In this document: positions 4,812-33,545 of the stretch, in pieces | Position numbering within the stretch: position 1 is the first letter of the stretch | Layout: each line of letters begins with the position of its first letter | Virus record (IMG/VR): IMGVR_UViG_3300011116_000353 | Span: 1-33,631 of that record | DNA: 33,631 bases | Source: a virus | Reading direction: 5' to 3' (one strand) | Program-made: the position numbers and the translations under genes | Notes under the pieces: generated by a model | Told to the model about the DNA's origin: nothing | The model's input: the letters and a program-made list of their open reading frames with translations, nothing else | The model's database searches: none

Positions 4812-5477
4812 TTACGCAAACAAAAGTTGTTGAGTAGCCACCACACCACCGGCATCATATTTTTTTGTTTCGCCTTTTGGATATGGTTCTACTTGATATT
4901 TGAGATCGTTTAGCATCTGACGTTTTTGGTATTTGTTGCCACAGAAGAAAATGTATCGGTGTTTGCGTGATCGTTCTTCGATGTAAAAATCATTTCCAAA
5001 CTTTGCTTTAAACCAAGCTACTCTATCTTCTTGTCCCTTTGCCATATCGTTAATGGTTTGACTGTGCAAATGCTCCATGCCACGAATTTTGTAATCTTGA
5101 TTTTTTGCGCTTAACCCTGTGTAAATAAAATTTGTTGCTTGGTAGATATAGCCAACATGACCCATTGCTAAATCAGCATAACTAACAACAATGGTTGGGT
5201 GCGGAAGATGCTTAAGCGAATTTGCAACAAGAAAACTCGCATAATTTTTTCCTTCATTGCATACAAGTCGGTTTAATTCCAAAACGTTGTTCTTCCATTG
5301 ATCGCCACATATTCCGCTACGCAAGGAAGAAGATGATGGAACACCGTAAGTCACCACTCCAACAAGATCAGGCGCAAACAATCCAAACGCATAAGAGATA
5401 GGAGGCATCCTTCGTGCGTAGTGCTTTTGCAGTAACCAAGGACTAACTTCTTGTGGTTTAAGAGACAGTATCTTCAT
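4812..5477 (-). CDS. mom: Mom-family adenine modification protein
   Basis: A 221-residue protein resembling phage Mom-like DNA modification enzymes, which have a GNAT-like fold and in phage Mu convert adenine to N6-(methylcarbamoyl)adenine, protecting DNA from restriction. Recognisable segments are WLLQKHYARRMPPISYAFGL near the N-terminus, VLELNRLVC, IVVSYADLAMGHVGYIYQAT, the GMEHLHSQTI region, and RSRKHRYIFF near the C-terminus. The start at ATG 5477 has an AGGA site. It lies directly downstream of the C4-like RNA/Ash-like region, which may control it. Mu mom is under tight control because it is toxic; the same pressure may apply here. Confidence 0.8.
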   Translation of the reverse strand: MKILSLKPQEVSPWLLQKHYARRMPPISYAFGLFAPDLVGVVTYGVPSSSSLRSGICGDQWKNNVLELNRLVCNEGKNYASFLVANSLKHLPHPTIVVSYADLAMGHVGYIYQATNFIYTGLSAKNQDYKIRGMEHLHSQTINDMAKGQEDRVAWFKAKFGNDFYIEERSRKHRYIFFCGNKYQKRQMLNDLKYQVEPYPKGETKKYDAGGVVATQQLLFA

Positions 5478-5850
5478 TCTTTTCCTGATAGTATCTATCT
5501 GCTCTTTGGTGAGCGCACGTAGCCTTAGCCAGTACGCCCTTTAGTCTGCTCTTCGGAGCCGCGACACGCGACAGTCTTTCGGTCAGAGGCACTATCTTCG
5601 CCACCTCTCTGCGTGCTGTTGCAGACCTTAGCCACCAGTAGCACTTTCCACTCGCATCGCTGTTGCTCTCATTGCCCAATGCGGTGTAGCCCAAAAGAAA
5701 AAACCCCTTGGCATGGGTTTCAGGTCGCGGTGGAAGGGAGCAGCAGAACAAACTCCGAACAACCGAAACCCATGCGAAGGGGTTCTTCGTTCTGCTATTC
5801 GCGCTTCCACACGCGGCCGATCTTTCTCTCGGACAAACATAGAATGGCAC
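5458..5850 (-). CDS. Ash/Icd-like reading frame over a C4-type RNA region
   Basis: This frame gives KNPFAWVSVVRSLFCCSLPP, RPETHAKGFFLLGYTALGNE and YWWLRSATARREVAKIVPLT, the pattern I associate with the Ash (P4) and Icd-like (P1) proteins of enterobacterial and related phages. A shifted frame (5628-5840) also yields a family-like string (MPRGFFFWATPHWAMRA). Part of this conservation probably reflects constraint on the RNA, since the C4-like structure lies inside it. P1 Icd inhibits host cell division; no such activity can be claimed here. Start unresolved: the 5' part overlapping the RNA may not be translated. The 3' end overlaps mom by 20 bases. Confidence 0.4.
   Translation of the reverse strand: MPFYVCPRERSAACGSANSRTKNPFAWVSVVRSLFCCSLPPRPETHAKGFFLLGYTALGNESNSDASGKCYWWLRSATARREVAKIVPLTERLSRVAAPKSRLKGVLAKATCAHQRADRYYQEKNEDTVS
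5702..5784 (-). repeat. Inverted repeat: 20-base arms, one mismatch, with trailing U-run
   Basis: Arms at 5765-5784 and 5702-5721 are complementary at 19 of 20 positions, separated by 43 bases. Read on the minus strand, the second arm runs into a T-run (TTTTTTCTTTT, 5703-5693), so the long pairing looks like an intrinsic terminator with a large loop. The first arm can alternatively fold locally (see ncRNA 5742-5796). This two-state layout matches the known complementarity of C4/CI RNAs with their target mRNA. Confidence 0.8.
5742..5796 (-). ncRNA. C4/CI-type antisense RNA candidate
   Basis: On the minus strand an outer stem AGCAGAACGAA / UUUGUUCUGCU (5796-5786 with 5752-5742, one G-U) encloses a hairpin AACCC-CUUCGCAU-GGGUU followed by a short spacer. 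The inner arm is complementary to a downstream segment at 5702-5721. P1 C4 and P4 CI RNAs have this logic: a small folded RNA whose loops pair with the leader of the downstream icd/ant or replication genes and block expression. Location directly after cro and before an Ash-like frame supports the call. Exact RNA ends are unknown. Confidence 0.6.
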
Positions 5851-5869
5851 AGTTAAGCCACCTTGTCAA

Positions 5870-6091
5870 CTACTGCTGCGGGACGATTTCAGCCACCATC
5901 TGTTCAATCGGCACATAGTCACTAGGATTGACCTTCAGAACGCCGTTTGTGACCACCTGAAGCTTGTATGCCATCCCCTCGGGGATTTGCCCACGCTTCG
6001 CCCACTGGCTCACTGCCTGGCTTGTAATGCCCAATGCCTCGGCTAGTTTGCGACGGTTGCCAAAGTGCTGCTCTGCCTCTGCAATTTTCAT
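5870..6091 (-). CDS. cro: Cro-like helix-turn-helix repressor
   Basis: Start chosen at ATG 6091 behind GGAGAG; the upstream in-frame ATG at 6124 lies at or before the predicted transcription start. The 73-residue protein reads MKIAEAEQHFGNRRKLAEAL then GITSQAVSQWAKRGQIPEGM, a clear Cro/DicC-type HTH with recognition helix SQAVSQWAKRG, followed by KLQVVTNGVLKVNPSDY. Cro-type proteins repress divergent early promoters. Operator-like repeats lie next to it at 6122-6231. No CI-type partner gene is present in the window. Confidence 0.85.
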   Translation of the reverse strand: MKIAEAEQHFGNRRKLAEALGITSQAVSQWAKRGQIPEGMAYKLQVVTNGVLKVNPSDYVPIEQMVAEIVPQQ

Positions 6092-6121
6092 GCTGCTCTC
6101 CATAGGGTTAAAGATAACTTG

Positions 6122-25555: not shown

Positions 25556-26257
25556 CCTTTTGTTCATGTCCTTGGCTCTTTATCCAAGGCTCCTGCATAT
25601 TTTCTTCTATGCAGAGCAGACTATCTCATCGTAAGTTTTTCGCTTGCTTGGTAGCGCTAATCTTTGCGCCATGACCTTTCGGTTTTCCAAGCTGCGCCAA
25701 TCTGCGTTTCAAGTTGCTTTCTGCGTTCGGTCGGTAGCCATTCGCTACACGCGCCGCCGCTGCCTTTTTTGGCGCATCCGCAGGGGGTCTAAACGACAAT
25801 TCATTTTCGTTTAGCAATAAATCTTGCACCCTGTAATGCTTCATCCAAGACAACTCACGCTCGCGCTTCTCAATCACTAATACATCTGCTGGCATCGTTT
25901 CAAGCACTTTCATTTGAAACAAACCGGCGTGATCGTTCCACGCTTCTTGCAACCGTCTAGAAGTATGTTTTCCGGCTTTCAACAGGCTTCGATGCTCGCG
26001 CATCCTTTTACCTATCTTGCCCGAAGTGCAGCCAACATAAGCTGCGCCGGTACTCGTATCTTCTAATCCGTAGATCGTTACCATTTGGGATACCCCTCTG
26101 TGGTTAATACTTACGCTCCGCGCTCGTGGGACTTAGCTTCCGCTTTGTCCTAGTCGTTACACCTTCCGCAACCCTTGGTTATCCTTTGCGGCTTGGCTCG
26201 GTGTTGGCATCTCAGCTTTTCACCGAATTCACGGAGTTTTATAACGTCTATATGTTA
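25556..26257 (-). ncRNA. Group I intron (td-like) in the major capsid gene
   Basis: A 702-nt intron. P1: exon 1 end AACGUU pairs with the guide GACGUU at 26248-26243, giving the required U-G at the splice site. P4: UUCGGUG (26227-26221) with CACCGAG (26203-26197). P6: CCGCAA (26191-26186) with UUGCGG (26171-26166). P7: GACUA (26155-26151) with UAGUC (25623-25619). P9 hairpins: CUGCAU/AUGCAG (25598-25593, 25614-25609) and CCUUGG/CCAAGG (25589-25584, 25575-25570). The 3' part AGATAGTCTGCTCTGCAT is close to the T4 td intron. The last intron base is G, and the endonuclease frame sits between P7 strands (P8 region). Phase 0. Confidence 0.93.
25626..26084 (-). CDS. Intron-encoded GIY-YIG homing endonuclease
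   Basis: A 152-residue protein. GIY-YIG domain at residues 1-90: TIYGLEDTSTGAAYVGCTSG contains IYG and YVG, KRMREH carries the catalytic-type Arg27, and VIEKRERELSWMKHY a candidate catalytic Glu at 72 or 75. The basic C-terminus (YRPNAESNLKRRLAQLGKPK) probably binds DNA, like NUMOD-type tails of I-TevI relatives. Such enzymes cut intronless copies of the host gene to spread the intron. The start lies in GGGGTATCCC, a short hairpin that may hide the ribosome-binding site. The stop TGA lies within the conserved 3' intron core. Confidence 0.9.
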   Translation of the reverse strand: MVTIYGLEDTSTGAAYVGCTSGKIGKRMREHRSLLKAGKHTSRRLQEAWNDHAGLFQMKVLETMPADVLVIEKRERELSWMKHYRVQDLLLNENELSFRPPADAPKKAAAARVANGYRPNAESNLKRRLAQLGKPKGHGAKISATKQAKNLR

Positions 26258-26338
26258 AACGTTGTCAGCGAGTTCACCAGTACGACTTTGGATGTTGGTC
26301 GCAATGATATCGCTGATAGCACTATTGGCGAAAGCCAT
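26258..26338 (-). CDS. Major capsid protein, exon 1
   Basis: First 27 codons of the coat protein: MAFANSAISDIIATNIQSRT then GELADNV, behind AGGAGA. Immediately after the GTT codon the intron begins with TAA, so without splicing the frame would end here. Exon 2 continues in phase with ACA at 25555. The joined segment DNV-TNNNALLRRL is natural for coat proteins of this type, which often begin MAFANSAISDIIATTI. Confidence 0.9.
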
Positions 26339-26357
26339 TATGTTCTCCTATCAGTTT

Positions 26358-33020: not shown

Positions 33021-33177
33021 GATGCATTTTTTTCATCGCTTCGGCTAACTTCTTGCCCTTGTCAGCCTGGTTGAATTCCTTGGCTACTTTGACCGGCACG
33101 CCGACTTTCTTGGCGAATTCGGGGTTATGTGCAGCCGCCGCCATCATGCGGGCTTGAGCGGGTGAATGGCTAGGCAT
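33013..33177 (-). CDS. Small basic phage protein, 54 aa (copy B)
   Basis: Homologue of 466-633: the same AKKVGVPVKVAKEFNQADKG core, but an altered N-terminus (MPSHSPAQARMMAAAAHNPE) and a C-terminus ending KKMHHA. The C-terminal change marks one border of the inserted gene, whose ATG overlaps this stop by a few bases. ATG overlaps the DUF5856 stop as TAATG. Confidence 0.75.
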   Translation of the reverse strand: MPSHSPAQARMMAAAAHNPEFAKKVGVPVKVAKEFNQADKGKKLAEAMKKMHHA

Positions 33178-33545
33178 TATTTCAAAAACCTCAGTTTGTA
33201 GAGCGTCGAATCAATCTGATCCGCGATCTCGTCCACAATGTTCTGAAGCTGGCTTTCGCTTGGCAAGTCCTTGCGGATATCGTCAACAAAATCTTTTATC
33301 TGCGTTAAGTACTTGACCGGCTCTGAGGCCAAATGAAAGTCTTTGGGGTAATTCGTGATGATGTCGTAACAACCTTGGTACGCCTCTGCCCACTTATCTG
33401 CGAGTTCGACAATTGCGTCGTAATACTCGCCCAATGCTACGTGTTGCGCGTAGCTTTTTGTTTGCAAGTGCATGAAGTGCGTAACGGTTGCCGAGTGAAA
33501 AAGAACACTAACAAACGCTGCCGCTGATTCGTTGTATTTCGCCAT
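33177..33545 (-). CDS. DUF5856-type ferritin-like phage protein (copy B)
   Basis: A 122-residue helical protein, nearly the same as 633-1001 (differences include SYAQHVAL for SFAQHMAL and DDIRKD for DDLRKD). Mostly synonymous or conservative changes between the copies indicate purifying selection, so this uncharacterised gene is functional in both strains. Confidence 0.75.
   Translation of the reverse strand: MAKYNESAAAFVSVLFHSATVTHFMHLQTKSYAQHVALGEYYDAIVELADKWAEAYQGCYDIITNYPKDFHLASEPVKYLTQIKDFVDDIRKDLPSESQLQNIVDEIADQIDSTLYKLRFLK

Follow-up and report, generated by a model that had tools for sequence, protein, structure and literature searches.

Between the cro gene and the replication genes of phage lambda lies a Rho-dependent terminator, tR1. 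From a single promoter of the Salmonella prophage Gifsy-1 come both a short terminated RNA, IsrK, and a longer mRNA made by read-through, on which IsrK acts in trans, affecting translation of orf45/anrP (PMC4825925). In P4, as the same source describes it, CI is a processed antisense RNA that pairs with seqA and with seqC, which are separate sequences (PMC4825925), and in the C4 antisense RNA of P1/P7 the a' specificity region varies (PMC5320573). The locus described here is on the minus strand of an environmental phage contig, IMG/VR record IMGVR_UViG_3300011116_000353, the whole 33,631-nucleotide stretch of which is referred to as the window. Directly downstream of its cro gene is the sequence of a structured RNA that, judged by comparison with listed families and phages, is a phage RNA family unlisted so far. 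A sequence-only reading of the window had placed a structured RNA of the phage immediately behind cro and ahead of mom, and this placement was borne out by the family matches of the two genes (PF14549, PF25680). The features of the locus, in the direction of transcription, are the following.

5870-6091, minus strand: cro, P22_Cro family (PF14549, 2.9e-19), directly upstream of the RNA element
5872-5870, minus strand: stop codon of cro; the -35 hexamer of the putative RNA promoter starts on the next base
5864-5869, minus strand: putative -35 hexamer TTGACA, present in 33 of 34 distinct upstream sequences
5841-5846, minus strand: putative -10 hexamer CATTCT, spacer of 17, weak match to the consensus
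5693-5834, minus strand: structured RNA of 142 nt, 129.9 bits with its own covariance model, both ends predicted
5817-5832, minus strand: hairpin A, CCGA-GAGAAAGA-UCGG, invariant columns in alignment A1
5800-5815, minus strand: hairpin B, CGCGU / GCGCG, with the loop GUGGAAG (5810-5804) that pairs with a bulge (P0)
5786-5797, minus strand: linker, which is the 5' arm of the hypervariable helix P1, UAGCAGAACGAA
5759-5785, minus strand: 5' arm of terminator hairpin T, GAACCCCUUCGCAUGGGUUUCGGUUGU, 27 nt
5756-5753 and 5740-5737, minus strand: apical stem of T, GGAG / CUCC, which closes the apical loop
5741-5752, minus strand: apical loop of T, which is the 3' arm of P1, UUUGUUCUGCUG
5730-5736, minus strand: one-sided bulge CUUCCAC in T, near its top, the P0 partner of the hairpin B loop
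5702-5727, minus strand: 3' arm of terminator hairpin T, CGACCUGAAACCCAUGCCAAGGGGUU
5693-5701, minus strand: U-run UUUUCUUUU, directly 3' of the 3' arm of T
5566-5686, minus strand: RF02932 (Betaproteobacteria-1 RNA), a separate module, 76.5 bits against a gathering score of 49.4
4812-5477, minus strand: mom-like DNA modification gene (PF25680, 2e-35; phrog_1384), the first gene downstream

The element reads, from 5' to 3', hairpin A (in the close relatives defined below, among which it is the most conserved sequence in alignment A1), hairpin B, linker, hairpin T and U-run. The boxes ahead of it resemble a promoter of the sigma-70 type, from which transcription would start; the placement of TTGACA-17-CATTCT predicts G5834 as the 5' end of the RNA, and the 3' end is predicted within the U-run. 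In the 33 upstream sequences that have it, TTGACA begins 35 or 36 nt 5' of the first base of the RNA, a position that is kept even where a gene other than cro lies upstream or the spacers are unrelated DNA. The -10 hexamer in relatives is TACTGT, TAGGAT, TAATGT or GAGTCT, and most versions of the distant set have TATAAT-like boxes. A consensus scan that requires four of six matches in the -10 hexamer did not call the promoter of the window. All versions have the form of an intrinsic terminator, a GC-rich stem and then a U-run, and in the window the stem is followed at once by UUUUCUUUU, as had been claimed; the span of 5690-5800 previously assigned to the RNA does contain the pairing and the U-run, but the unit begins upstream of that span, at G5834 and not at 5800.

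An open reading frame that overlaps the element (5850-5458), earlier called an Ash-like gene, matches nothing in Pfam, NCBIfam or PHROG and has no tblastn hit, and a protein-coding reading was rejected on these grounds and because the reading frames are interrupted in relatives. Stop codons occur in all three frames across the relatives and the lengths of the element differ by all residues modulo three; thus, the element is not a conserved open reading frame. Among approximately 40 of the open reading frames of the window, scanned with PHROGs and Pfam, there was no CI-type repressor or integrase. Two genes of phrog_858 ("starvation-inducible transcriptional regulator") are located near both ends of the record (633-1001 and 33177-33545, both on the minus strand). 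A candidate group I intron (25593-26267, minus strand; RF00028, 32 bits, E 1.3e-4, below the gathering score of 50) contains an open reading frame with a GIY-YIG domain (26084-25626; PF01541), and another open reading frame that starts near 26340 stops at the edge of the candidate intron, as though a structural gene were split.

At least 53 distinct versions of the element are found in IMG/VR contigs of environmental phages. The close set of 31 was collected from cro homologues in IMG/VR and by a pattern search built on the conserved 5' end; a covariance model built on it matched weakly to DNA directly upstream of RF02932, and inspection of contigs that had been fetched for RF02932 alone gave the distant set of 22 further versions, which share almost no sequence with the close set and have the same plan. 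The element had no match in 50,697 records of named phages and only chance fragments in the plasmids searched, no family of Rfam 15 covers it, and a literature search that reached few subscription journals found no paper describing it or RF02932.

A stretch of 111 nt from the locus folds with an energy of -52.8 kcal/mol, compared to a mean of -29.7 kcal/mol for shuffled sequences (z -6.8; 0 of 200 shuffles). The long-range pairing that the sequence-only reading described as a 20-base complementarity to 5702-5721 is present; on the minus strand it joins 5785-5759 with 5727-5702 and ends in UUUUCUUUU. Also present are the outer stem (UAGCAGAACGAA at 5797-5786 with UUUGUUCUGCUG at 5752-5741) and the inner AACCC/GGGUU hairpin. 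Lack of covariation of the arms among relatives had been named as evidence against the proposal, and covariation was found: paired changes in relatives maintain the outer stem as well as the long pairing, and both thus exceed chance. In the predicted T fold the outer stem, which the sequence-only reading took to be part of a competing fold, is the link between linker and apical loop, so that it need not compete with T.

The partners of each pairing were compared by energy within and between versions. The two arms of T had a mean energy of -37.8 kcal/mol with their own partners versus -24.1 kcal/mol with swapped partners in the close set (a difference of 14), and -33.9 versus -15.6 kcal/mol in the distant set. 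The loop of hairpin B paired with the bulge of T at -7.3 kcal/mol, versus -2.9 when swapped and -3.0 when shuffled (32 distinct pairs), and the linker with the apical loop at -4.7 versus -1.1 kcal/mol (42 distinct pairs, from versions with long enough linkers). Loops and bulges were taken from a fold program that is unable to contain pseudoknots and predicts both to be unpaired. The complementarity of B loop and bulge spans approximately 7 nt and holds in nearly all versions, although the letters differ (GUAGGAA/UUCCUAC, AGUCGUGU/ACACGAC, GUGAUGU/ACAUCAU, GUGGAAG/CUUCCAC and others); version L335, whose loop and bulge are identical to those of the window, has a contact of -10.0 kcal/mol, and so has the window. 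Pair counts were made only on the two alignments of distant versions, A2 and A3, because the MAFFT alignment of the close set, A1, misplaces the columns of T and P1 owing to paired 2-bp insertions; the close set was tested by own versus swapped partners instead. In A2, 96.0% of cells were paired, with double-sided change in 17 of 47 pairs, and in A3 the values were 85.0% and 20 of 41; none of 500 shuffles was as high for paired cells, double-sided changes or covariation score, and a control in which partners were slid lowered the paired cells to 32-57%. The helix of B loop and bulge taken alone had double-sided change in five of six pairs (A2) and five of seven pairs (A3).

An alternative fold, in which P1 is nested together with P0 and T is open, overlaps in topology with the predicted one and by standard energies is only 0-22 kcal/mol worse (5.8 kcal/mol in the window), so that the working form could possibly be a switch in the versions that have P1. 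Short versions without P1 keep the contact of B loop and bulge, which is sensible there only if T is closed, and for this reason the contacts probably sit mostly on the closed T hairpin. The same short versions, which have only the contact of B loop and bulge, weaken an initial assumption that outer stem and long hairpin are mutually exclusive.

P1 is the fastest-changing part of the RNA, and changes faster than the other pairings in the manner of recognition tags. In ten pairs of close versions the RNAs are identical except in P1, where they differ at 7-22 bases, with the changes paired, and their flanks (300 nt on each side) are mostly 55-85% identical, a few being unalignable. For one such pair, L330 and L377, all seven differences are within 24 of the 142 columns (p ~4e-6 under equal rates). 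The arms of P1 in the close set pair at -15.5 kcal/mol with their own partners, -5.2 when swapped (a difference of 10) and -5.6 when shuffled; thus, the arms of differing versions recognize one another no better than shuffled arms do. By sequence, P1 looks like a specificity element or a site of rapid exchange, its variability being compatible with a specificity role without demonstrating one.

RF02932 lies directly 3' of the element here and in many relatives, its match in the window beginning 6 nt 3' of the U-run, and yet it is a separate module. Its covariance model matches outside the element (5686-5566) and not over the element itself; RF02932 is absent downstream of several elements, and no element was seen at approximately 20 copies of RF02932 examined in bacterial genomes. 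Pairing in trans between the element and RF02932 was rejected, as the energies with own and swapped partners (-69.5 and -67.8 kcal/mol) gave no signal. Downstream of at least 19 of the 31 close versions comes RF02932 or a recognizable copy of its start, the full core following 16 of them, always 90 nt beyond the end of the element; other close versions have a primosomal or replication gene within a few nucleotides, or other unlisted conserved stretches, and the U-run is directly 5' of a replication gene in several relatives. The gene ahead of the distant versions encodes a Cro/repressor-like helix-turn-helix protein or a primase. From the families of the genes that flank close and distant versions, the element is judged to be placed before, or within, the replication part of the early operon.

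RF02932 itself occurs in early or replication operons of environmental phages (in the window, at L403 3322-3616 and at many other loci), and an unannotated stretch that resembles it follows the primase gene of Acidovorax phage AP1. Its model seems too short, as conservation extends past its end, through a stretch GCUC..AAGAGCAGAU found in both the window and AP1, and segments of the GGUGC/GCACC type in its consensus resemble an unmodelled pseudoknot. Two other conserved non-coding stretches occupy its spot, one in L324 and L396 and one in L329 and L334; the stretches that replace RF02932 are of a GGGGGCAUAACCCACCCC type and a GGAUCGUGCCCACCGCGUUAGCAAUG type, and may be further unlisted RNA modules.

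The element is probably a terminator or attenuator that, from its own promoter after cro, yields a stable small RNA and gates the replication and mom genes. The sigma-70-like promoter just past cro would start an RNA of approximately 142 nt, which would fold into the 5' hairpin B and the long intrinsic-terminator hairpin T, with the loop of B docked on the bulge of T and the linker paired with the apical loop of T. Most transcription begun here, and probably most that comes from the cro promoter, would end at the U-run; termination would leave a compact, stable small RNA and bar RNA polymerase from the downstream genes, which are RF02932, mom and replication genes here and, directly, a primosomal gene in several relatives. 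Read-through, governed by the speed or occurrence of the closure of T, would gate those genes, in analogy to a tR1-type terminator converted to an attenuator, and the tertiary contacts could speed or slow the closing of T and protect the RNA. The position of the element alone is what points to gating.

A plain constitutive terminator between cro and the next genes, similar to tR1, unregulated and with the RNA as a by-product, would agree with the long GC-rich hairpin and U-run of all versions and with the position after cro, as in lambdoid phages, but is improbable because it would require no promoter of its own, no covarying contact of loop and bulge and no hypervariable helix. It is likewise doubtful that the element is a trans-acting or decoy small RNA against a host RNA or protein, with the terminator merely as its 3' end: the predicted promoter and defined 3' end and the fact that sequence outside P1 can stay identical while flanking genes diverge are in its favor, but there is no recurrent match elsewhere in the phage flanking DNA that was searched and few unpaired bases remain as a seed. 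The C4 or P4-CI antisense RNA of the sequence-only reading shares with the element an early-operon position after cro and a structured RNA with two complementary regions, and is nevertheless very unlikely; this identity was rejected for want of a model match and a target. The Rfam C4 covariance model (RF01695) has no match at E<=10 in the window or in 5400-6100, no recurrent complementarity was found in 3-33 kb of flanking DNA, including no recurrent antisense match of at least 10 nt in the flanks of the 31 versions, and the 150 nt downstream gave no signal of own versus swapped pairing (1 of 38 fell in the best 5%); co-evolution with RF02932 was likewise not seen. The complementarities lie within the molecule: compared to the layout of P4 CI, there is a single pair of T arms inside the element, and no second copy was found.

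A role for P1 as a tag leads to an unlikely reading in which the RNA controls itself, the finished small RNA pairing in trans through P1 with other copies of its leader as they are transcribed, and altering their termination. It would work in the manner of P4 CI or IsrK, but by self-pairing, and P1 would be the tag that confers specificity on copy-number control or on immunity to superinfection. The sequence-only reading had suggested that the RNA may be the main immunity determinant and act in trans. The rapid change of P1, including the ten pairs that differ solely inside it, the failure of P1 arms of different versions to recognize each other (-5.2 versus -15.5 kcal/mol), the position ahead of replication genes and the precedent of IsrK, in which a short terminated RNA acts in trans on the longer transcript from the same promoter (PMC4825925), are consistent with it; the short versions without P1 and the satisfaction of both P1 arms within the molecule in the T fold argue against it, and the fast paired change could reflect phage recombination or relaxed constraint. 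That such RNAs constitute a new class of phage RNA for immunity or copy control that works without an antisense gene, in which the leader recognizes its nascent self by P1 and so sets termination before replication, is a slightly more speculative proposal; if it were true, P1 would define compatibility groups of co-infecting phages. The locus adds a structured RNA family missing from Rfam 15 to the region from cro to the replication genes of environmental phages, which in lambdoid phages is the place of the first decision. As an intrinsic terminator found in nature whose tertiary contacts covary, it would be a useful test case for the way RNA folding adjusts termination. A hypervariable helix carried by a conserved scaffold yields a testable prediction on how specific co-infecting phages are towards one another, and the constant distance from RF02932 supplies a context for an orphan Rfam family.

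Compared to the known systems, the element resembles IsrK in having a predicted promoter of its own in a phage operon, a short RNA predicted to end at an intrinsic terminator, putative partial read-through into the next genes and a second stable RNA directly downstream, but IsrK acts on translation of orf45/anrP and here no pairing with the downstream RNA is seen; there was no IsrK match among the Rfam results for the window. It resembles the P4 CI/SeqA region, as the same source describes it, in being a leader before replication genes, where in P4 termination decides expression (PMC4825925), and differs from CI as described there in that its complementary arms are within one unit of approximately 142 nt with no further copies found. 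With C4 (RF01695) it shares the character of a phage regulatory RNA with short recognition segments, but has no match to the covariance model, no three-stem form of approximately 77 nt and no downstream a/b target. The position of the terminator between cro and replication genes is that of lambda tR1, from which the element differs in appearing to be intrinsic, in its predicted promoter and in its pseudoknotted fold. A phage terminator or attenuator small RNA would be of a known kind, and the predicted combination of a pseudoknotted terminator and a hypervariable helix appears to be unusual.
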